Assembly (NCBI GenBank): GCA_937873515.1
Contig: CALMYB010000017.1
Location: forward strand, 1-64,000
From: an uncultured Acidobacteriota bacterium
GTDB lineage: Bacteria; Acidobacteriota; Blastocatellia; Pyrinomonadales; Pyrinomonadaceae
DNA: 64,000 nucleotides
Reading direction: 5' to 3'
Shown here one piece after another: positions 1,150 to 11,181 of this stretch. The translations under genes and the position numbers were made by a program. Under the pieces are notes generated by a model that saw nothing but the letters and a program-made list of their open reading frames with translations, was not told where the DNA came from and did not search any database. Position 1 is the first letter of the stretch. The number at the start of each line of letters is the position of its first letter.

Positions 1150-2370
1150 CTACGCGATCTTGATGTCTGAGACGACGCGCCGGATCTTGCCGTCGGAACT
1201 TGGAGCGTCAGGTTTCAATCCGAGCGTAAGCGATGAATAGAGGCCTAGGCATTGCGCGAAGAGTACATAGGGTAGGGCTAGGTAATCATCGGCTAGAGTT
1301 GAAAGGGGAAGCTCTATTGTGGTGTCGGCGATCGAGTTCAGGTCAAGTGAGTCCGGGCCGATAGCGAGAATCGAACCAGCCGCCGCCTTTGTTCGAACTT
1401 CCTCCAAAAGGCCGAGTTCGATCTTCTGCTTTGCTGCGTCGTTCGAGACGAAGCCCACTACGAGCGACCTCTTGTTCAGCCAAGAGAGCGGGCCATGCCG
1501 AAGGCCCAAAAATGATTCCGACATAGTCGAGTGAAATCCGCCGGACAGTTCGAGCACCTTTAGAGAGCTTTCCTCCGCGACCGCTCTTAGCGGGCCGCTG
1601 CCAAGGAAGCAGATCCGTTCGAAACGATCAGCAGCGATCTTGCGTCCGGTGTCGGCAATATCACTCAGGTGATCTGCCGCAATCGCGGATATCGTTGAAA
1701 CTACGCCCTCAAATTCGGTCAGGTCGTTGATGTGGGCAAGACATTGACCTGCGACAACCATATTTGTAAACGAACTTGTCATGGCAAGCCCGCGATCGTT
1801 CGTTTTGTCATCGAGTACGACGCATAACACGTTGGGTTTGCCCGCCGCAAACTTATTCGCCATTTTGCCGCCCTTGCTGCACGTTACAATGAGGTGCGCG
1901 ATCTGCGGATAACGATCAATTGCCGTCTCGAGCACCTTCACGCCTTCGAAGCTGTCACCGGAACGCGAAAATGAAATCCACAACGGACGAGGATCGACTC
2001 TCTCCGACTCAAGCATCGGCTTCATATCTGTGAGCAGATCTGTGCTAGGTACAGCTTGAGCAGTAACCTTCCACTTTCTTCTCAGAAGGGGTGCGACCGC
2101 TCTGCCGATATAATCCGAAGTGCCTGCACCGATAAGCGTCACCGATGTCGGGCTGAAAGTATCAACAAAGCTTGCGATCAGGGACCGCATTGTCTTCACG
2201 ATGCGGAGAGTTTCGAGCCATGTTTCGGGCTGCTGCACGATCTCGGACGGCGTGAACTCCAATCCGAAAGAAGCCTTCGCAGAGGGCGAAAGCTGAAGGA
2301 TCTCGCTGAGCGTCAGTTGGTCGGGCGATGCATCTATCATTAGCCAAGTTCGTACGGCTTCCGAGCACAC
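1150..2370 (-). CDS. agaS: AgaS-type SIS-domain sugar isomerase/deaminase
   Basis: Two tandem SIS domains. The first carries LIGAGTSDYIG and ISFSRSGDSFEGV (phosphosugar-binding Ser/Thr loops); the second carries FLGSGPLRAVAEESSLK. ESFLGLRHGP and the C-terminal DAPSSDGKIRRVV match the AgaS family well. AgaS acts on galactosamine-6-phosphate, deaminating and isomerising it to tagatose-6-phosphate; a glucosamine-6-phosphate role cannot be excluded. Length 406 aa from a GTG at 2370; an ATG at 2340 (396 aa) is an equally plausible start, and neither has a strong ribosome site. It is divergent from a rightward cluster holding the kinase and aldolase of the same pathway, which supports the assignment. 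Cytoplasmic. Confidence 0.85.
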   Translation of the reverse strand: MCSEAVRTWLMIDASPDQLTLSEILQLSPSAKASFGLEFTPSEIVQQPETWLETLRIVKTMRSLIASFVDTFSPTSVTLIGAGTSDYIGRAVAPLLRRKWKVTAQAVPSTDLLTDMKPMLESERVDPRPLWISFSRSGDSFEGVKVLETAIDRYPQIAHLIVTCSKGGKMANKFAAGKPNVLCVVLDDKTNDRGLAMTSSFTNMVVAGQCLAHINDLTEFEGVVSTISAIAADHLSDIADTGRKIAADRFERICFLGSGPLRAVAEESSLKVLELSGGFHSTMSESFLGLRHGPLSWLNKRSLVVGFVSNDAAKQKIELGLLEEVRTKAAAGSILAIGPDSLDLNSIADTTIELPLSTLADDYLALPYVLFAQCLGLYSSLTLGLKPDAPSSDGKIRRVVSDIKIA

Positions 2371-2397
2371 TTTCGTAAAAAAGTTCGTTTCGCCGAA

Positions 2398-2425
2398 TTG
2401 CTTGTTCGCGTCAAGTTTCTATAAT
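2398..2425 (+). promoter_or_regulatory. Possible sigma-70 promoter of the amino-sugar cluster
   Basis: A perfect TATAAT lies at 2420-2425 with a weak -35-like TTGCTT at 2398-2403 (16 bp spacer), about 65 bp before the PfkB start, in the 121 bp between the divergent agaS-like and pfkB-like genes. The same AT-rich tract could hold a leftward promoter for agaS. Inferred from sequence only. Confidence 0.35.
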
Positions 2426-2491
2426 ATATTACGCTTTTCCGATTTGCCGAAAGTGATGTAACTATAACCAGACACAGACGGGGAGACAGCT

Positions 2492-3433
2492 GTGGCGAAA
2501 TCCAAAGACATCGTCGTTATCGGTGAGTTGAATGTGGACCTCATCGCTTCGGGCGTGAACACGGGGCCCGTTTTAGGCACCGAAGTTCTTGCCGCCGACT
2601 TCAACATTGCGCTGGGGAGCGCGTCGGCCATCTTCGCTTGCGGGATCGCGCGTCTCGGCCACAGCGTAACCTTCGTGAGCCGGATCGGGAATGACGATTT
2701 TGGCCATTTTTGTCTCGAATCTCTCGTCCAGCGGGGAATCGCGACCGACCATATTGAGATCGATGTTCAGTCAAAGACCGGTGTCACTGTCGTTATAAGC
2801 ACCGCAGAGGATCGCGCCATGGTAACCTTCCTCGGCGCGATCGCCGAGCTTTCACTTACAGAAGTTCCCGCGAACATTTTCCAAGACAACCGACACCTTC
2901 ATTTGACCTCCTACTATCTGCAGAAAGCTTTGCAGCCTGATTTTCCATATTTGCTCGACTCGGCCAAAGCCGCGGGCGCTACAACGTCTTTTGACCCGAA
3001 TTCGGATCCTGATCAAGGCCGCGACGAAAAGGTGTTGGAGATCTGCCGCCACGCCGACATTTTGTTTCTGAACGAGGACGAAGCAAAGCTCTTGGCGGAT
3101 ACCGGCGACATAGAAGAAGCCGGACGATACTTGAATGGACTGTCTCCGACCGTCGCGATCAAACTGGGTGCAAAAGGCGCGATCGGGTTTAGGGACAATG
3201 AAATAGAACACGTCGAAGGCTTCAAGATCGATGCAGTTGACTCGACCGGCGCAGGTGATTCTTTCGCCGCCGGTTTTGTCCACGCCTACCTTGACGGCTC
3301 GGACCTTAAGACCTGTCTTAAGATCGGCAATGCCTGCGGTGCATTTTCGGCGTCGAGGCCCGGCGGCACGGACGGCCAGGCTGATCAAGAAGAACTGGAA
3401 AGGTTCTTGATGTACGCGGCACTGCGTACATAG
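2492..3433 (+). CDS. PfkB/ribokinase-family sugar kinase
   Basis: 313 aa. The PfkB fold is clear: N-terminal GELNVDLIASG, the substrate-side stretch ALGSASAIFACGIARLG, and the C-terminal PfkB signature DSTGAGDSFAAGF near residues 250-262 with its catalytic Asp. It transfers phosphate from ATP to a sugar or sugar phosphate. The start is a GTG with GGGGAG about 8 bases ahead. It opens a rightward set with aldolase, transporter and hexosaminidase. A second PfkB-family gene at 10.2 kb resembles tagatose-6-phosphate/1-phosphofructokinases more closely, so this one may act earlier, for example phosphorylating the imported amino sugar. That division of labour is inference. Confidence 0.85.
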   Translation: MAKSKDIVVIGELNVDLIASGVNTGPVLGTEVLAADFNIALGSASAIFACGIARLGHSVTFVSRIGNDDFGHFCLESLVQRGIATDHIEIDVQSKTGVTVVISTAEDRAMVTFLGAIAELSLTEVPANIFQDNRHLHLTSYYLQKALQPDFPYLLDSAKAAGATTSFDPNSDPDQGRDEKVLEICRHADILFLNEDEAKLLADTGDIEEAGRYLNGLSPTVAIKLGAKGAIGFRDNEIEHVEGFKIDAVDSTGAGDSFAAGFVHAYLDGSDLKTCLKIGNACGAFSASRPGGTDGQADQEELERFLMYAALRT

Positions 3434-3466
3434 GAATTTGGCCGCGGAACCCATTAAGTAGAACTA

Positions 3467-4303
3467 ATGCAGCTTACTTCAAGCCGAAATATTCTCGACG
3501 AGGCACGGGCAACTGGTCGTGCCGTCGCCGCTCTGAATTTTTATAATGCGGAGACTTTGCGGGCGCACATTGATGCCGCAAATGAATGCGGGGCCTCGAT
3601 AATCCTGCAGACGACGGAATCAACGATCAACTATCTCGGCATTGAACTCATCGTCGCGATGGCAGGTGCGGCGGCGGTCGAGACGTCCCATCCTGTAGCG
3701 TTGCACCTTGACCACGGCGGGAGCTTCGAACTCGCGAAGCGATGCATTGAAGCCGGCTATTCATCTGTAATGATCGATGGTTCAAAACTGCCGTTCGAGC
3801 AAAATATAGAGCTGACTTCGCGCGTTGTTGAGCTTGCACATAAGGAAGGAGTCTCGGTCGAAGGGGAATTGGGACACGTTACGCAGAATGACGATAACGA
3901 AAATATCTCGGATTTTTTCACGCGACCGGAAGATGCGAAGGCATTTGTTGAAAGCACAGGCGTTGATGCTCTCGCGGTGGCGATCGGAACGGCACACGGC
4001 TTTTACAAGGGTGAGGTAAAGCTTGATCTTCCACGGCTACGGGAGATACGTGATGTGGTGGGTGACACCTCGCTCGTGCTCCACGGCGGCTCGGGCGTAC
4101 CGGATGAGTTGATGCGTGATGCGATACGAAGCGGGATCGCTAAGATCAATTTTGGAACTGAGCTGAAAAATGCGTTCACCCTTGCGGTAAAAGATTCGCT
4201 TCTTGCAAGCGATGATATCGACTTGCGGCGGACCTTCGCACCGGCAGTAGAAGCTGTGCGGCGAGTTTCTTCCTCGAAGATCCGCGTGTGTCAGCTGGCG
4301 TGA
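3467..4303 (+). CDS. Class II (zinc) ketose-bisphosphate aldolase, tagatose-bisphosphate type
   Basis: 278 aa, the usual length of the KbaY/GatY/Fba class II family. Visible active-site elements: His80-Leu-Asp82-His83 (catalytic Asp and a zinc His), EGELG near 132-136, His177 in GTAHGFY and His206 in VLHGGSGVPDE. These residues and their spacing fit tagatose-1,6-bisphosphate aldolases. It would split the bisphosphate into dihydroxyacetone phosphate and glyceraldehyde 3-phosphate. It begins 33 bp after the upstream kinase. With an AgaS homologue next door the tagatose substrate is preferred, but fructose-bisphosphate cannot be ruled out from sequence. Confidence 0.88.
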   Translation: MQLTSSRNILDEARATGRAVAALNFYNAETLRAHIDAANECGASIILQTTESTINYLGIELIVAMAGAAAVETSHPVALHLDHGGSFELAKRCIEAGYSSVMIDGSKLPFEQNIELTSRVVELAHKEGVSVEGELGHVTQNDDNENISDFFTRPEDAKAFVESTGVDALAVAIGTAHGFYKGEVKLDLPRLREIRDVVGDTSLVLHGGSGVPDELMRDAIRSGIAKINFGTELKNAFTLAVKDSLLASDDIDLRRTFAPAVEAVRRVSSSKIRVCQLA

Positions 4304-4337
4304 AAGGTTTTTACAAACTAGATCGGGAGACCTTCTT

Positions 4338-6176
4338 GTGCAAGTAACCCTAATTGACTGGATCATCGCGATAGCTGCGGTTGCGATCTGTTTCGTTCCG
4401 GCATTGTTCGTGAGCAAACGCTCATCGAAGAACACCTCGGAGTTTTTTGCTTCTGGACGATCCGTGCCGTGGTGGCTTGCGGGACTGTCGATGGTCGCAA
4501 CGACGTTCAGCAGCGATACGCCGAACCTAGTAACGGACATTGTTCGCCGCAACGGTGTCGCGGGGAATTGGGTTTGGTGGGCATTCGTTCTGACGGGAAT
4601 TGCGACCGTCTTTTTTTACGCTCGCCTGTGGCGACGCTCGGGCGTTCTTACGGATCTCGAGTTCTACGAAATACGGTATTCAGGAACTGCGGCCGCGGCG
4701 GTTCGCGGATTTCGAGCGGTTTACCTGGGGCTGCTGTTCAACTGCCTGATCATGGCTACCGTGAATCTTGCCGCGTGCAAGATCGCCGCGGTGCTTTTTG
4801 GACTCGACCGCTGGCAGACGCTGCTCGTTGTTGGACTTTTGAACGTGGCTTTTGCCGCTCATTCCGGCCTTTGGGGCGTTCTCGTCATCGACATGATCCA
4901 GTTCTTTATCAAGATGACGGCGGTCGTCGCGGCGGCCTACTTTGCCCTTACCTTGCCGCAGGTCGGAGGTCTAAGCGGAATGGTCGAGAAGGTTTCGGCG
5001 ATGAAGGGACCGGGCGGCATCGAATATCTGAACATCCTGCCGGATTTCAGTAATAACTGGGAGATCGCCGTTGCTGTTTTCATAATGCCGATCGCGGTCC
5101 AATGGTGGGCGGTCTGGTATCCGGGGGCGGAACCGGGCGGCGGCAGCTACATCGCCCAACGAATGCTCGCGTCAAGATCCGAAAAGGATTCGCTTGGTGC
5201 CGTACTCTTTTTCAACCTCGCACACTATGTTCTAAGGCCTTGGCCATGGATACTTGTCGGCCTCTGTTCGCTCATCATTTATCCGCAGCTGTCGGACATT
5301 CAAGCGGCATATCCGCACCTTGATCCGAGTCTGATCAACCACGATATCGCTTTTCCCGCAATGCTTAAGTTCCTGCCTATCGGTTTCGTCGGATTGATGG
5401 TCGGCGGACTTGTTGCGGCAAATTCTTCCACGATCCTGACACATCTGAACTGGGGTGCATCGTACCTCGTGCATGACTTTTACCGGCGATTCATTAAGAA
5501 GGACGGAAGCGAAAAGCATTACGTAGCGATGGGACGCCTTGCCACGATAATGCTCTTCTTTGTCTCATCTGGTGTCGTGTTCGTACTCGATTCCGCTAAA
5601 GATGCATTCGATATTATTCTTCAGGTCGGCGCCGGTACGGGATTGCTGTACTTGCTCCGCTGGTATTGGTGGAGGATAAATGCATGGTGCGAGGTGGTCG
5701 CGATGATCAGCTCCTTTGTGGTGTCGGTAGGCTTTATCGCACTCGGTAGGGAAGGGATACTTACGATGGAATCTGCACCCAAGCTGATATTAACGGTGAT
5801 CATTACGACCGTTTGTTGGCTGATCGCTGCCTACTTTGCCCCGCAGACCGATCGTCAGACGCTGATCGAGTTTTATAAGAAGGTTCATCCCGCAGGCCCG
5901 GGCTGGGAAACCATCCGAAAGGAAGCAGGAGTTTCAAAAGAGGCCGCACGCAGGCACGGAGATAACATTCCAGCGGCGTTGCTCGGATGGGTCTCCGGCT
6001 GCGCGATGACGTGGTCGGCGCTGTTTTCGCTCGGCAACTTTCTCTATGGAAGAATGGAATATGGTTTCGCGCTTCTGATCGTTTTTATCGTGAGCAGCTT
6101 AACTCTATTGAGAGTCGTTTCACGGCTTTGGGCGACGGATTCTGGCGGTGCGATCGATGAAGCGGTAGATGGCTGA
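4338..6176 (+). CDS. Sodium:solute symporter (SSS family)
   Basis: 612 aa, strongly hydrophobic with about 13-14 membrane segments, starting directly with a transmembrane helix (IDWIIAIAAVAICFVPALFV). The following WWLAGLSMVATTFSSDTPN is the SSS-family TM1-TM2 pattern found in sodium-coupled sugar transporters. The start is GTG with GGGAGA upstream. It overlaps the next gene by 8 bp. From context it likely imports N-acetylhexosamines or chitobiose-like products made by the GH20 enzyme; the substrate is inferred, not visible in the sequence. Inner membrane. Confidence 0.88.
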   Translation: MQVTLIDWIIAIAAVAICFVPALFVSKRSSKNTSEFFASGRSVPWWLAGLSMVATTFSSDTPNLVTDIVRRNGVAGNWVWWAFVLTGIATVFFYARLWRRSGVLTDLEFYEIRYSGTAAAAVRGFRAVYLGLLFNCLIMATVNLAACKIAAVLFGLDRWQTLLVVGLLNVAFAAHSGLWGVLVIDMIQFFIKMTAVVAAAYFALTLPQVGGLSGMVEKVSAMKGPGGIEYLNILPDFSNNWEIAVAVFIMPIAVQWWAVWYPGAEPGGGSYIAQRMLASRSEKDSLGAVLFFNLAHYVLRPWPWILVGLCSLIIYPQLSDIQAAYPHLDPSLINHDIAFPAMLKFLPIGFVGLMVGGLVAANSSTILTHLNWGASYLVHDFYRRFIKKDGSEKHYVAMGRLATIMLFFVSSGVVFVLDSAKDAFDIILQVGAGTGLLYLLRWYWWRINAWCEVVAMISSFVVSVGFIALGREGILTMESAPKLILTVIITTVCWLIAAYFAPQTDRQTLIEFYKKVHPAGPGWETIRKEAGVSKEAARRHGDNIPAALLGWVSGCAMTWSALFSLGNFLYGRMEYGFALLIVFIVSSLTLLRVVSRLWATDSGGAIDEAVDG

Positions 6177-7221
6177 GAATACAGATAAGTTCATTGACAT
6201 GGTAACGGCGTCGGCACGCGTGGAATTGCCGCTGTCGGATTTTGCACCGAGACATGGTCTCCGCGTGCGGAATACGACCGTTGAGCGGGCAAAATTCCCG
6301 TGTATCGATTACCACAATCACCTAGACGCGCAGACTCCTCGAGATGTCCTTACGATCATGGATGCCTGCAACATCGAGCGGGTCGTGAATATCACAATGC
6401 AAACCGGCGAAGCCGCGTTCGAAGTGCATCGGAAGTTCAAGGCCGCCGCACCGAATCGTTTTGAGACTATCGCTTGGTTCGATTGGAGCGACCAGCACGA
6501 AACGGGCTTTTGGGAGCGCTCGCTTGAGCGACTGGAACGCTTCGCGGATGCCGCCTTTCGCGGCATTAAACTTTGGAAAGATCTTGGCTTAACCCTTAGG
6601 GATGCGAACGGTGAAATGCTTCGCGTAGATGACGAACGGCTTGCACCATTCTTCGAAAAGGCGGGTGAATTAGGGATGCCCGTGATGTTTCACACTGCCG
6701 ATCCCGACGCCTTCTTTTTGCCGATCGACCGTTTTAACGAGCGTTATGAGGAATTGGCCGCTCACCCAGATTGGGGATTTTACGGCTCACATTTCTCTAA
6801 GGATGAGCTTTTGGCTCAGCGTGACAGCGTCTTTCCTCGGCATCCAAAGACGACATTCGTATGCGCACACTTGGCTGAGAAGTCAGAGGACCTTGCGTAT
6901 GTCGGGCGTCTCCTCGATCTGAATCCAAACCTGTTTGTCGATATCGGTGCGCGAACAGCGGAACTTGGCCGCCAGCCTTACACATCCCGGGAATTCTTCC
7001 TCAAGTATGCGGATCGGATCGTGTTCGGAACGGATCTTGTCCCGGATATCGAAATGTATCGGCTTCATTTTCGCTTTCTCGAAACGCGGGACGAATACTT
7101 TGATTATCCTTCGCATGCTTCGCGTCAAGGCAGGTGGCAGATCTATGGTATCGATCTGCCGGACGATGTGCTTAAGAAGCTCTATAGAGAAAATGCGCTG
7201 AGGTTGCTGGAAGCAAGGTGA
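6169..7221 (+). CDS. Amidohydrolase-2-type metal-dependent hydrolase
   Basis: 350 aa TIM-barrel hydrolase. The N-terminal metal motif is DYHNHLD (His49-x-His51). Further expected elements are FRGIKLWKDLG, VMFHTADPD, FVCAHLAEKSED and a late IVFGTDLVPD with the catalytic Asp. This fits the amidohydrolase_2 (PF04909-like) branch rather than the NagA/AgaA deacetylase branch. Its start overlaps the transporter by 8 bp and its stop overlaps the GH20 start, so it is translationally coupled to both. Because the cluster lacks a NagA-type deacetylase, it is a candidate to remove the acetyl group, but lactonase or other activities are just as compatible with the fold. Confidence 0.8.
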   Translation: MAENTDKFIDMVTASARVELPLSDFAPRHGLRVRNTTVERAKFPCIDYHNHLDAQTPRDVLTIMDACNIERVVNITMQTGEAAFEVHRKFKAAAPNRFETIAWFDWSDQHETGFWERSLERLERFADAAFRGIKLWKDLGLTLRDANGEMLRVDDERLAPFFEKAGELGMPVMFHTADPDAFFLPIDRFNERYEELAAHPDWGFYGSHFSKDELLAQRDSVFPRHPKTTFVCAHLAEKSEDLAYVGRLLDLNPNLFVDIGARTAELGRQPYTSREFFLKYADRIVFGTDLVPDIEMYRLHFRFLETRDEYFDYPSHASRQGRWQIYGIDLPDDVLKKLYRENALRLLEAR

Positions 7222-9452
7222 TAGACCCGAGGATCGTTGGCGTTAGAACATACTTGTTAGCTGCTGTGCTCTTTGCGGCGGTGCCGACAGCCTTGCGTGC
7301 GCAGTACGACATTATTCCAAGGCCGCAAAGTCTCAGGCGGGGGGTCGGCGTGTTCCTGCTCGACAGGTCAACGACCGTCGATTCGCCCACCGATGATCGT
7401 TCGAGAGAAGTTGCAGAGTATCTTCGGGATACGGTCAGAGCTCAAACGGGTATCTCTATCTCTAGATATAGGCATGGAAAAAACAGGATCGAAATTCGTT
7501 TTGACCCGAACATTGTGGGCGACGAAGCCTATCGCCTTACTGTAAGCGAGAGCCGCGTCGTTATTGAAGCGAGCAATTCAAAGGGCCATTTCTGGGCAGT
7601 GCAGACACTTCGTCAGATCCTTCCGCGCACAAGAGGAAGCGTCGCTTCGATTCCGGCCTTAGTGATCAACGACAAACCTGAATATTCTTATCGCGGACAT
7701 ATGCTGGACGTCGGTCGGCATTTTTTCCCCGTTGAATTCATTAAACGGCAGATCGATCTGCTTTCGTATTACAAGATCAATACGTTTCGCTGGCACTTGA
7801 CCGAAGATCAGGGTTGGCGCATCGAGATCAAAAAATATCCAAAGCTTATTGCTGTCGGAGCTTGGCGCAAAGAGGCGGACGGTTCAACGTATGGCGGCTA
7901 TTACACACAGCGGCAGATACGCGAAGTTGTCGAATACGCTCGCGTCAGAAATGTGCAGGTGATCCCGGAGATCGAAATGCCCGGACACAGCGTTGCCGCT
8001 TTGGCCGCATACCCCGAATATTCGTGCCGTCAGAAGCCGCTAAAGGTAACGGCGGAATGGGGCGTTCACAAGGATGTGTTCTGTGCGGGCAATGAGAACA
8101 CTTTCGACTTTTTGAAGGATGTCTTGGACGAGGTGATCGCGTTGTTCCCTTCGCCTTACATTCACATCGGCGGCGACGAAGTGCCGAAAGATCGCTGGAA
8201 GGAATGCTCCCGGTGTCAGCACCGAATAAAATCCGAGGGCTTAAAGGACGAACACGAACTCCAAAGCTATTTCATCAGGCGAATTCAGCAATATCTCGAA
8301 TCAAAAGGTAAAACGCTGATCGGTTGGGACGAGATCCTCGAAGGCGGCGCCGACAGGAACGTCGTCGTTGAGGTTTGGCGTGGAAATGCTGAAGCTGCCA
8401 AGGCCTTGGCCCGCGGGCATCGCATGATCGTCGCAGGGCCGTTCTATTTCGACACACCGATAAAGAACAAGACCCTCAGGGACGTTGTTCTTACCGATCT
8501 GAATTCTGTCCCGACTTATTTTGAGAATCGAGATCTGGTCCTCGGTGCCGAGTGTCCGCTTTGGACCGAGAATGTGACGCCGGTAAACGCAGAATCGAAA
8601 CTTTATCCGCGGCTTCAGGCATTTGCGGAGGTGACCTGGGCGGGCAACGGCGGCAGTTTCGACGACCTCAAGCGCCGAATGGCCGCGCATTACGCATACG
8701 TGGATCTGCTCGGCATCGCCTATGGGCCGGAAGATAAGGCCTTGGCCGAGTACGGAATCGCATGGGTGCCGGCAATTGCAGCGTGGCGGTTGACGGCCGC
8801 TAAAGGTTTCAAGGACATAAAGTTCCACTACACGACCGATGGCAGCGAACCTTCGATAAGGTCGCGGTCGTTCACGGACTTGTTTGATGTCTCGCGGCCG
8901 GCCCTTATCAAAGTTGCACCATTCCGTCACGGCAGGCAGGTTGATCTTTCGAAACAAGTCGCCCTTACCGCGAATGCTGCCATTGGAGGGTCTATCAAAT
9001 ACGCGAATCCTATTGACACGCGCTACGCCAAAGCAGGTGAGGCGGCGCTAATAGACGGGATAGTCGGGAGCCGCGATCATAACGACGGCATTTGGGTGGG
9101 CTGGCAAGGTGCCGATCTTGATGCGGTCATCGACCTTGGCAGGCCGAGAAAATTGACTTCGGTCTCCGTGAATTTCCTTCAACAGAGCAGCTCTTGGATC
9201 GTGCTGCCTCGACGAGTGAGTATGTCCGCTTCGGAGGATATGGAGACTTGGGTTGACCTCAAGACCATCGATACGGGAGCGGATGCCATGGATATGGACA
9301 CTTCCATTCGAACGATAACGTTCAAGTCGCAGAAGTCGATCGCCGCGAGGTATGTAAGGGTAAGCGCTGTGCAGTTCGGGAAACTGCCGCCCGGGCATAA
9401 CGGTGCGGGCGGGGAATCGTGGATATTTGCGGACGAGATCATTGTTCGGTGA
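7218..9452 (+). CDS. Secreted GH20 beta-N-acetylhexosaminidase
   Basis: 744 aa. A signal peptide ends at about ALRA-QYD (residue ~29). A GH20b-like N-terminal domain is followed by the GH20 barrel (YRGHMLDVGRHFF, WHLTEDQGWRIEIK) with the catalytic Asp-Glu pair in HIGGDEVPKDRW near residue 320. After the barrel come a chitobiase-C-like segment (HYTTDGSEPS) and a discoidin (F5/8C)-like C-terminal module ending in SWIFADEIIV. It removes terminal beta-GlcNAc or GalNAc from glycans in the periplasm or outside the cell. The start is GTG, sharing GTGA with the preceding stop. It supplies substrate to the linked symporter. Confidence 0.93.
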   Translation: MIDPRIVGVRTYLLAAVLFAAVPTALRAQYDIIPRPQSLRRGVGVFLLDRSTTVDSPTDDRSREVAEYLRDTVRAQTGISISRYRHGKNRIEIRFDPNIVGDEAYRLTVSESRVVIEASNSKGHFWAVQTLRQILPRTRGSVASIPALVINDKPEYSYRGHMLDVGRHFFPVEFIKRQIDLLSYYKINTFRWHLTEDQGWRIEIKKYPKLIAVGAWRKEADGSTYGGYYTQRQIREVVEYARVRNVQVIPEIEMPGHSVAALAAYPEYSCRQKPLKVTAEWGVHKDVFCAGNENTFDFLKDVLDEVIALFPSPYIHIGGDEVPKDRWKECSRCQHRIKSEGLKDEHELQSYFIRRIQQYLESKGKTLIGWDEILEGGADRNVVVEVWRGNAEAAKALARGHRMIVAGPFYFDTPIKNKTLRDVVLTDLNSVPTYFENRDLVLGAECPLWTENVTPVNAESKLYPRLQAFAEVTWAGNGGSFDDLKRRMAAHYAYVDLLGIAYGPEDKALAEYGIAWVPAIAAWRLTAAKGFKDIKFHYTTDGSEPSIRSRSFTDLFDVSRPALIKVAPFRHGRQVDLSKQVALTANAAIGGSIKYANPIDTRYAKAGEAALIDGIVGSRDHNDGIWVGWQGADLDAVIDLGRPRKLTSVSVNFLQQSSSWIVLPRRVSMSASEDMETWVDLKTIDTGADAMDMDTSIRTITFKSQKSIAARYVRVSAVQFGKLPPGHNGAGGESWIFADEIIVR

Positions 9453-9484
9453 TGATGTGAGAGCTTGAGTGAAGGGAAGGCTTG

Positions 9485-10243
9485 ATGTGTAACACGAAGA
9501 GAGTACCGCTGTTGGAAGTATGTGTAGATTCGGTCGAATCCGCCGTTGCTGCCGAAATCGGCGGTGCGGACCGAGTCGAACTCTGCGACAACCTCGTCGA
9601 AGGCGGTACAACGCCGAGCGCAGGTGCGATAGAGGTCGCTCGAGACAGCCTCTCGATCAAGCTGCACGTGATCATACGACCCCGCGGCGGTGATTTTTTG
9701 TATTCGGATACCGAATTCAAAGTGATGAAGAGCGATATTCTCGCTGCGAAAGGCCTTGGTGCCGATGGTGTTGTGATCGGTATCTTGAATGCGGACGGTT
9801 CGGTCGATCGCGAACGGACTCGCGAACTTGTCGAGATAGCTCGCCCGATGTCCGTAACGTTTCACAGGGCCTTTGATATGACACGCGACCCATTCGAAGC
9901 CATGGAAACCCTTGTTGACATAGGCATCGACAGAATATTGACCTCAGGTCAAAAATCAGTCGCAGAGAAAGGCGTTGAACTGATCCGGGAGCTTGTTGGG
10001 CGAGCTTCGGAACGAATTACGATCATGGCTTGTGGTGAAATTCGCGAAGGTAATGTGAGCGAGGTGATCCGAAGAACAGGCGTTCGCGAGATCCATGCGA
10101 CCGGCTTTGTTTCGACGGAAAGCGGGATGGAGTTTCGTAATGAGCGCGTCTATATGGGCGGTGCCGACCTCGACGCTGAGTACTCGCTCAAAGTTACGAG
10201 TCCCGAAAAGATCGCCGCTCTTCGGAGAGCGGCAGAGCAATGA
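9485..10243 (+). CDS. cutC: CutC-family TIM-barrel protein
   Basis: 252 aa. Family signatures: LEVCVDSVESA, GADRVELCDNL, EGGTTPSAG, HVIIRPRGGDFLY, VTFHRAFDM and DRILTSGQ. CutC was named for copper homeostasis, but its biochemical role is uncertain. The start is the ATG at 9485 behind a good GGGAAGG; a TTG directly before it is less likely. Its last four bases overlap the start of the following kinase (ATGA), so the two are coupled. Its position between a hexosaminidase and a sugar-phosphate kinase suggests a carbohydrate-linked role (inference). Confidence 0.9.
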   Translation: MCNTKRVPLLEVCVDSVESAVAAEIGGADRVELCDNLVEGGTTPSAGAIEVARDSLSIKLHVIIRPRGGDFLYSDTEFKVMKSDILAAKGLGADGVVIGILNADGSVDRERTRELVEIARPMSVTFHRAFDMTRDPFEAMETLVDIGIDRILTSGQKSVAEKGVELIRELVGRASERITIMACGEIREGNVSEVIRRTGVREIHATGFVSTESGMEFRNERVYMGGADLDAEYSLKVTSPEKIAALRRAAEQ

Positions 10244-11181
10244 TCATCTGTGTTTCCGCAAACCCTGCGATCGACAAACGCCTTCGTGTGGAGAGTCTTG
10301 TTCTCGGCGAAGTTAACCGGGTTCGTTCTTCGGAAGCGTTTGCAGGCGGCAAGGCTGCTCATGTCGCGATGGCCGCGAAGGCACTCGGTGAAGAAGTTCT
10401 ATGGGTCGGACTTCTTGGCGGCGAAACGGGTGATGAGATAGAGCGTCAGCTTTCCGAACTTGGGATCAAGGTCGTGTCGGTGAGAACACAGTCGGTGACC
10501 CGTACTAATCTTGAGATCATCGATGATGGTGGCCAGATCACCGAAGTTCTTGAACCGGGTGGGATCGTTGATGCAGGCGAACTGACTGAGTTTCGTTCGG
10601 CGTGTACGGAAGCGTTTGAAGCGGCGGAAGACGGCACGGTCGTTGTGCTTTCAGGAAGCCTTCCGCCCGGAGTGCCGACGGATGAATTCGGGTCGCTGAC
10701 CGCATCGGCAAGAAATTGTGGTGCAAAGGTCATTGTCGATACCAGCGGAGAAGCTCTCACGGCCGCGATCGAAGGTTGTCCTGATCTGATCAAGCCAAAC
10801 AAAAGTGAGGCCGAAAAGGCTGCGGACATGGCATTGTCCGGTGAAGGCGATGCCTTGACGGCGATGAAGACATTGACAGACCGAGGGGCAAGATCCGTCT
10901 GCCTAACGCTGGGTGCGGACGGTTTGGCCTACTGGGATGGTCAAGTTGAGCCAGTCTTCGTAACGCCGCCGAAGGTCGATGTCACCTCAACGGTCGGATG
11001 TGGTGATGCTACGGTCGCCGGCCTCGCCGTCGCGATGAGGAGGCGGCTCGACTCGGCTGCAACGGCTCGGCTCGCCGCAGCGTGTGGAGCGGCAAACTGC
11101 CTTGCCCACTTGCCGGGCCAGATACAGAAAAAGGTCGTGGATGAACTGATCGACAAAGTTCTGGTTCGGTCTGGCCAGTGA
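10240..11181 (+). CDS. LacC/FruK-type kinase (tagatose-6-phosphate or fructose-1-phosphate kinase)
   Basis: 313 aa PfkB-family kinase of the hexose-phosphate branch: the start SANPAIDKRLRVE with GEVNRVRS, then AGGKAAHVA (phosphosugar-binding loop), LSGSLPPGVP, IKPNKSE and the C-terminal TVGCGDATVAG, where GCGD replaces the usual GAGD but keeps the catalytic Asp. The LacC/FruK/PfkB-II group phosphorylates tagatose-6-P, fructose-1-P or fructose-6-P. With AgaS and a class II aldolase nearby, tagatose-6-phosphate is the best guess. It overlaps cutC by 4 bp and is the last rightward gene of the cluster. Confidence 0.87.
   Translation: MIICVSANPAIDKRLRVESLVLGEVNRVRSSEAFAGGKAAHVAMAAKALGEEVLWVGLLGGETGDEIERQLSELGIKVVSVRTQSVTRTNLEIIDDGGQITEVLEPGGIVDAGELTEFRSACTEAFEAAEDGTVVVLSGSLPPGVPTDEFGSLTASARNCGAKVIVDTSGEALTAAIEGCPDLIKPNKSEAEKAADMALSGEGDALTAMKTLTDRGARSVCLTLGADGLAYWDGQVEPVFVTPPKVDVTSTVGCGDATVAGLAVAMRRRLDSAATARLAAACGAANCLAHLPGQIQKKVVDELIDKVLVRSGQ

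Follow-up and report, generated by a model that had tools for sequence, protein, structure and literature searches.

A candidate N-acetylgalactosamine utilisation cluster in an uncultured Acidobacteriota bacterium, with a putative PF04909 deacetylase and a predicted PfkB-type hexosamine kinase

In the known pathway of amino-sugar breakdown, N-acetylgalactosamine-6-phosphate (GalNAc-6-P) is deacetylated by AgaA or NagA ahead of AgaS (PMC12118421 and PMC3668189, in the sections on this step), and a survey of gut bacteria, in its account of the aga pathway, places it in Actinobacteria, Firmicutes and Proteobacteria only (PMC5583593). The ong pathway for oxidised chitin is described as comprising the deacetylase OngB, OngC, KdgK and the importer OngIT, a sodium:solute symporter (SSS) (PMC9537276). 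Here we analyse a gene cluster in a 64,000-nucleotide stretch of DNA, called the window below (positions 1 to 64,000 of contig CALMYB010000017.1, assembly GCA_937873515.1), from an uncultured member of the Pyrinomonadaceae (Acidobacteriota). The assembly measures 3.56 Mb in 27 contigs, with a completeness of 97.5%. The outline of the cluster is ordinary, leading from GalNAc through tagatose-6-phosphate (Tag6P), and it is unusual in two steps. We propose that the locus is a GalNAc utilisation unit in which deacetylation comes ahead of phosphorylation, a reading that in our judgement could go either way. The cluster consists of the following features.

1150..2370, - strand: AgaS-type SIS sugar-phosphate isomerase/deaminase (proposed); matches PF01380 and TIGR02815
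2371..2491, no strand: divergent intergenic stretch between agaS and the operon
2492..3433, + strand: PfkB-family kinase 1 (proposed galactosamine 6-kinase); PF00294, E 5e-58
3467..4303, + strand: class II ketose-bisphosphate aldolase (proposed tagatose-1,6-bisphosphate aldolase); PF01116, E 3e-92
4338..6176, + strand: SSS symporter (proposed GalNAc importer); PF00474
6169..7221, + strand: PF04909 amidohydrolase of 350 residues (proposed N-acetylhexosamine deacetylase); PF04909, E 2e-22
7218..9452, + strand: beta-hexosaminidase of glycoside hydrolase family 20 (GH20) with an F5/8 C-type domain; PF00728 (E 2e-110), PF02838, PF00754
9482..10243, + strand: CutC-family TIM-barrel protein; PF03932, E 9e-75
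10240..11181, + strand: PfkB-family kinase 2 of the 1-phosphofructokinase (1-PFK)/LacC type (proposed Tag6P 1-kinase); TIGR03168

For each catalytic step, and for the placing of deacetylation before phosphorylation, we infer the following route. The GH20 enzyme (GH109 or GH27 enzymes in relatives) would release GalNAc and the SSS protein would bring it into the cell. The PF04909 amidohydrolase would deacetylate the sugar in its unphosphorylated form to galactosamine, to which kinase 1 would add a phosphate at O-6. The AgaS-type protein would convert galactosamine-6-phosphate to Tag6P and ammonia, the 1-PFK/LacC-type kinase would turn Tag6P into tagatose-1,6-bisphosphate, and the class II aldolase would split this into triose phosphates. 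Passage through Tag6P, which an earlier note on this DNA had put forward, is well supported and very probable; whether deacetylation comes first is, to us, an evenly balanced question.

The gene content of the cluster, its conservation and co-occurrence in other genomes and the lack of a NagA or AgaA gene within it were observed directly. The seven + strand genes (2492-11181) overlap their neighbours or lie 29-34 bp apart, and agaS is divergent from this operon across a gap of 121 bp. No regulator gene was found in the cluster; two sigma70-like matches lie on the - strand of the gap against 0.3 expected, a weak signal. All genes named in the earlier note are present where it placed them, with strong Pfam matches, although its list was incomplete and missed the amidohydrolase and CutC. 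The SIS protein matches TIGR02815 (agaS_fam) with E 3e-84 and 283 bits, the curated cut-off being 529, and its closest solved chains by sequence are the AgaS-like 3odp, 3c3j and 3i0z (E ~1e-50). The aldolase scores above the cut-off of TIGR00167 and below that of the tag_bisphos_ald equivalog, and is the only PF01116 match found in the window genome. Kinase 2 reaches 270 bits with the hexose kinase model TIGR03168 (cut-off 216); its scores with the lacC and pfkB equivalogs fall below their cut-offs. By eye, the GH20 protein has a hydrophobic N-terminus resembling a signal peptide. The Pfam matches of the cluster proteins revealed no AgaA/NagA-type deacetylase and no phosphotransferase system (PTS) gene in the cluster, a genome-wide search for the latter not having been made.

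When the 162 genomes of the class were searched, 43 amidohydrolase matches were found in 34 genomes, and neighbourhoods were fetched around 32 of the matches. The order agaS(divergent)-pfkB-aldolase-SSS-amidohydrolase-(GH20)-(CutC)-lacC is intact in six other genomes (L031, L032, L033, L035, L038, L039), GH20 and CutC being optional, so the possibility raised earlier that the cluster is split and unrelated in close relatives did not hold. In other close relatives the set is spread across contigs or lies farther away (L034/L156, L040/L155, L036/L157). Related clusters additionally encode a periplasmic binding protein, a regulator of the DeoR type and GH35, GH27 and GH109 proteins. Alpha-N-acetylgalactosaminidases are found in families GH109 and GH27, whose presence in relatives points towards GalNAc as the substrate. 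For GH27 this activity is given in the gut survey, in its passage on these enzymes (PMC5583593). The earlier note had left GalNAc or N-acetylglucosamine (GlcNAc) as the starting sugar; GalNAc is favoured here, and the AgaS-type SIS gene together with GH109, GH27 and GH35 in relatives makes GlcNAc less likely as the main substrate.

The amidohydrolase, AgaS and kinase 1 tend to occur together. With AgaS called at E <=1e-40 to TIGR02815, it was found in 14 of the 162 genomes, 13 of which belong to the 34 that gave an amidohydrolase match at any identity. An amidohydrolase at least 67% identical to that of the window is present in 11 genomes, ten of them with AgaS (Fisher 4e-12, uncorrected for phylogeny). 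Within the window's genus the close amidohydrolase and AgaS are held by the same eight genomes; a further member, G102, has only a distant amidohydrolase (~40% identity), and AgaS was not found in it. The kinase-1 clade, taken at 318 bits or more so that 8 of 24 matches (226-235 bits) were treated as outside it, is present in 16 genomes and covers 13 of the 14 that bear AgaS. In G114 (98% complete), kinase 1, the aldolase and a 51%-identical amidohydrolase share one small contig, and profile searches found neither NagA nor AgaS in that genome.

Beyond the class, a species-genome collection was scanned with the amidohydrolase alignment and the best 80 of 539 relatives were taken, giving 1.2 Mb of loci to which the following counts refer. 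The closest named record among the matches listed is L069, a metagenome-assembled genome (MAG) of the Pyrinomonadaceae (Acidobacteriota), whose amidohydrolase is 91% identical. By profile search, 34 loci hold an AgaS/GlmD-like SIS gene, 23 kinase 1, 26 DeoR, 8 LacC and 6 GH109-like genes (three of them weak); SIS or kinase 1 is present in 37 loci and both in 20. Of 35 SIS open reading frames (ORFs), 24 lie no more than 3 kb from the amidohydrolase. By score the SIS genes of the 34 loci divide into 14 AgaS-type and 20 GlmD-like, and when six were compared with NCBIfam, the two AgaS-type ones agreed and the four lower-scoring ones matched GlmD or GlmS best. As both SIS types are linked to it, the amidohydrolase appears to act at a step that galacto- and gluco-configured amino sugars share. 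The linked loci span several phyla, among them Acidobacteriota, Chloroflexota and Balneolota. Chloroflexota loci often read DeoR-amidohydrolase-SIS, followed in L131 by an ATP-binding cassette (ABC) transporter and a GH4 gene. In L137 the order is SIS-PfkB-LacD-like aldolase-(transposase-like ORF)-amidohydrolase-LacC-DeoR, in L104, L098 and L142 a PF00365 phosphofructokinase (PFK) takes the LacC position, and L142 carries three GH109-like genes alongside PfkB, AgaS, PFK and the amidohydrolase. The cultured Fodinibius roseus (L113) has DeoR, AgaS, GH109 and an exported-type amidohydrolase. As a separate observation, the transposase-like ORF of L137 (8706-9980; PF01385, PF07282) sits inside this Chloroflexales amino-sugar operon, directly upstream of the amidohydrolase.

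The window amidohydrolase belongs to the PF04909 family by its Pfam match and by H49, H51, H175, H234 and D289, which are invariant in all 53 aligned sequences and which we take to be the metal-ligand pattern HxH...H...H...D of these enzymes. Its model (predicted local distance difference test, pLDDT, 93.9) matches PF04909-type enzymes, the top structural match being 3irs (VIA Z 21.9, 2.8 Å over 237 residues), and 2,6-dihydroxybenzoate decarboxylase 2dvt aligns with Z ~20 and 3.2 Å over 250 residues; identity to the structural matches listed is 14-22% across aligned residues. No NCBIfam model matched it, and it gave no match to the NagA alignment profile A4 even at E 1000, a profile with which the window genome's own NagA scores 364 bits. 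The fold proved uninformative on chemistry, deacetylation being neither supported nor excluded by it. With AgaA/NagA missing from the cluster, this enzyme is the best candidate to take their place, and we consider it somewhat more probable than not that it is the deacetylase of the route.

The export of its relatives bears on what such a deacetylase would act upon. Among the 37 amidohydrolases linked to SIS or PfkB genes, 17 carry a Tat- or Sec-like signal by eye, 19 carry none and one is truncated at a contig end; automatic calls gave 16 exported of 36 linked rows with some N-termini mislabelled, so the by-eye count is quoted (L104, L119 and L145 look exported and L110 and L147 do not, at variance with the automatic calls). 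In a tree of 79 amidohydrolases there are three sets, all with linked members: one from Chloroflexota and one from Acidobacteriota, the latter including the window enzyme, are mostly cytosolic, and another from Acidobacteriota is mostly exported. Since about half of the linked enzymes carry export signals, a phosphorylated substrate is unlikely; exported enzymes cannot reach a cytoplasmic sugar phosphate, and the shared substrate is therefore best taken as a free N-acetyl sugar, in which case the kinase would meet galactosamine (or glucosamine). Exported amidohydrolases in genomes where NagA was not found occur in L102, together with AgaS, kinase 1 and LacC, and in L106; L102 is the single clearest case for deacetylation of the free sugar. 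For the window enzyme, the order of deacetylation and phosphorylation is taken by analogy from these relatives.

Kinase 1 was identified as a PfkB/ribokinase family member by its Pfam match, an intact GAGD motif and a ribokinase fold in the model (pLDDT 92); its invariant positions in the alignment include D16, H135, H137 and D256. In the GGKGAN stretch of ribokinase the Asn contacts the sugar, and kinase 1 has GSASAI there. It reaches no NCBIfam equivalog at cut-off (IolC 150 bits of 300, ribokinase 145 of 300, tagatose kinase 126 of 420). Specificity could not be read from the fold, with YdjH, ribokinases and KDG (2-keto-3-deoxygluconate) kinases matching about equally. Columns 29, 51, 70, 136, 169, 252 and 296 part the AgaS-linked from the GlmD-linked kinases in a comparison of nine rows per set, author-assigned with three of 21 rows left out; they are confounded by phylogeny and were not used. 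The claim that this second PfkB kinase needs a job other than Tag6P phosphorylation was borne out, as its clade is found in 13 of 14 AgaS genomes, also where a PF00365 PFK seems to fill the Tag6P-kinase slot in place of LacC (L104, L142). Kinase 1 quite probably acts on a free hexosamine (galactosamine or GalNAc). This agrees with the earlier suggestion of a free amino sugar; because of the amidohydrolase in the operon the likely substrate shifts from GalNAc to galactosamine, and its predicted job is most likely to phosphorylate the galactosamine made by that neighbour.

Several observations weigh against the proposed route. The window amidohydrolase shows no signal peptide and its sequence marks it as cytoplasmic, which leaves room for a phosphorylated substrate in its own case. 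No deacetylase appears among the 50 listed rows of either structural search with its model, and the named matches are mostly decarboxylases, hydratases and lactone hydrolases. AgaS was found without an amidohydrolase match in G118, and the reverse holds in G155; in G109, G112 and G113 (g23) a cluster with AgaS, PfkB, aldolase and LacC has no amidohydrolase within it, an enzyme of ~50% identity lying 8-9 kb past the cluster on the same contig in G112 and on another contig in G109. Kinase 1 is the sole cluster gene left in G076 (L149 2798-3736, 593 bits), and because G076 retains it without the rest of the set, the kinase is not strictly tied to the pathway; this looks like natural loss of the whole unit except kinase 1. 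The ORFs after kinase 1 in L149 are sized like the conserved downstream flank. Of the 80 loci from the best 80 of 539 relatives, 43 have neither AgaS/GlmD nor kinase 1, and some exported homologues adjoin other pathways (L045-L047), as in L047 by GHMP kinase and phosphoglucomutase genes. Because more than half of the loci lack the linked genes and some lie by other pathways, the PF04909 amidohydrolase family may have more than one role. The window genome itself has one NagA, on another contig (C3:100691-101590); NagA was found in 18 of 20 genomes tested, twelve with and eight without an amidohydrolase match, and in 22 of the 31 genomes behind the 37 linked-gene loci, so that in most of these genomes NagA could carry out the deacetylation in trans.

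These points bear most directly on the classical order, in which kinase 1 would be a GalNAc 6-kinase analogous to AgaK and GalNAc-6-P would be deacetylated by the PF04909 amidohydrolase or by NagA elsewhere before the AgaS, LacC and aldolase steps. The NagA counts, the cytoplasmic window enzyme and the Shewanella precedent of a permease and kinase, AgaP and AgaK, in place of a PTS all speak for it, as does E. coli, where NagA can deacetylate GalNAc-6-P and so replace AgaA (PMC3668189). The setting of the window genome's NagA looks like peptidoglycan recycling: it lies ~7.6 kb from a BadF-type kinase, and the ORF just downstream of that kinase reads by eye as MurQ. Against the classical order, amidohydrolases that are exported yet encoded next to these kinase and SIS families have no access to a sugar phosphate inside the cell, and the search for NagA came up empty in nine of the 31 linked-gene genomes (L102, L103, L106, L118, L129, L131, L137, L139, L147), seven of them Chloroflexota, out of ten Chloroflexota examined. 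Since TIGR00221 at 1e-10 had not recovered the B. subtilis control, this absence was rechecked with profile A4, which gave weak generic matches only (<=43 bits) in the nine genomes, G114 and G097; G185, G188 and G112 were positive at 422-491 bits, and G109 and G118 in pieces only. The assemblies are mostly draft MAGs, in which absence is not proof. No ORF in the 80 loci from the best 80 of 539 relatives matched the NagA profile, and NagA was rejected as part of the unit, since it lies outside the cluster and is present in genomes with and without it. Taking both sides together, we regard the classical order as unlikely, although it is the strongest competitor of deacetylation before phosphorylation. 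We also noticed that the NagA of the L063 genome (6629-7597) is short, 323 residues covering profile positions 55-349 of 380, and that its relatives G096, G086 and G092 match over nearly the same shortened range.

It would also be conceivable that the locus serves galactosamine only, the amidohydrolase being a lactonase or accessory hydrolase unrelated to N-deacetylation. A published annotation rule does take AgaS without AgaA as galactosamine utilisation (PMC5583593, in its rules for this pathway), and none of the named proteins that resemble the amidohydrolase in structure is a deacetylase; yet the operon's GH20 and the GH109 and GH27 enzymes of relatives would free an N-acetylated sugar, and the amidohydrolase is found with SIS genes of both the AgaS and the GlmD type, which makes this reading improbable. 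Least probable is that kinase 1 duplicates the LacC-type enzyme, as a second Tag6P/fructose-6-phosphate kinase or as a tagatose kinase. Sequence is a poor guide to PfkB specificity, and there is the tagatose kinase match (NF049991), far under its cut-off, but kinase 1 scores only ~19 bits with the LacC (PRK13508) and 6-PFK II (PRK10294) models, and because a LacC-type or PF00365 PFK gene adjoins it in L069, L070, L072, L102, L104, L132, L137 and L142, the Tag6P step already has a candidate.

Some observations concern neighbouring settings. CutC, annotated for copper homeostasis, is encoded within this amino-sugar operon; L031, L032, L033, L034 and L038 retain it and other related loci lack it. 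A literature search on its role gave no useful lead, and a sugar-related role is worth testing. The exported amidohydrolases of L045, L046 and L047 lie by genes for DUF4832, S15 peptidase, GHMP kinase/nucleotidyltransferase, major facilitator superfamily and phosphoglucomutase proteins. In L041 (4359-12433) and L043 (3-4559) the amidohydrolase accompanies a PF07005/PF17042 acid-sugar kinase, PdxA and a 502-residue ORF without a Pfam match, and L041 additionally has genes for a pyridoxal phosphate enzyme (PALP), an AgaS-like protein (38%) and a dihydrodipicolinate synthase-family protein; the setting suggests a different kind of route, for amino sugars or sugar acids. In several Acidobacteriota loci a melibiase-like protein (PF02065) of ~740-870 residues is encoded near exported amidohydrolases (L146 11071-13296, L106 4722-7025). 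For blood group A antigen an enzyme pair that deacetylates and then cleaves is known, and by analogy it is conceivable that these two proteins form such a pair.

More broadly, we tentatively suggest that a PF04909 subfamily in Acidobacteriota, Chloroflexota and Balneolota consists of free-sugar N-acetylhexosamine deacetylases, often extracytoplasmic, paired with an unassigned PfkB subfamily of hexosamine 6-kinases (typical stretch LGS[SA]SAI) and replacing the AgaA/NagA and AgaK/PTS steps in GalNAc use; the GlcNAc version would employ GlmD. If this is true, two large enzyme families would gain amino-sugar functions, and genomes that have AgaS but no AgaA, currently interpreted as using galactosamine alone, would use GalNAc through a different deacetylase. 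Free-sugar GalNAc deacetylases are useful in glycan and blood-group work. In the open-access literature searched, subscription papers being mostly outside it, no report turned up of a deacetylase from the PF04909 family or of a PfkB kinase for galactosamine or GalNAc, which is weak evidence of novelty.

Among known systems, the PF04909-type enzymes (ACMSD, dihydroxybenzoate decarboxylases, LigJ hydratase, 2-pyrone-4,6-dicarboxylate hydrolase) share the fold and metal-ligand pattern of the window amidohydrolase, which differs from them in its amino-sugar gene neighbourhood and low identity. The archaeal chitin route, for which a literature search gave no confirmation, would comprise a deacetylase, a glucosaminidase, a glucosamine kinase and GlmD; it too would deacetylate before phosphorylating, with another deacetylase family and in gluco configuration, and the Chloroflexota loci share its GlmD-type SIS deaminase. 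The ong pathway, as far as its published description goes, shares with our proposal SSS import, direct deacetylation of an unphosphorylated N-acetylated sugar and a later sugar kinase; it differs in acting on the sugar acid GlcNAc1A, in a deacetylase (OngB) whose closest resemblance is to D-aminoacylases, in the deamination of the free sugar acid to KDG by OngC, and in having no AgaS/LacC/aldolase branch (PMC9537276). OngB offers a precedent for deacetylating a sugar that has not first been phosphorylated, from a cluster that also encodes an SSS importer and a sugar kinase. In contrast to the phyla given for the aga pathway in the gut survey (PMC5583593), the linked clusters described here occur in Acidobacteriota, Chloroflexota and Balneolota, to which the pathway would extend if our reading is right. 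With the aga/gam systems of E. coli and Shewanella the cluster shares an AgaS-type SIS protein, a Tag6P-kinase candidate, a class II aldolase, a permease and kinase instead of a PTS, GalNAc-releasing glycosidases and, in relatives, DeoR; it differs from them in having a PF04909 amidohydrolase instead of AgaA/NagA and a PfkB-type kinase 1, and in that it probably deacetylates before phosphorylating.

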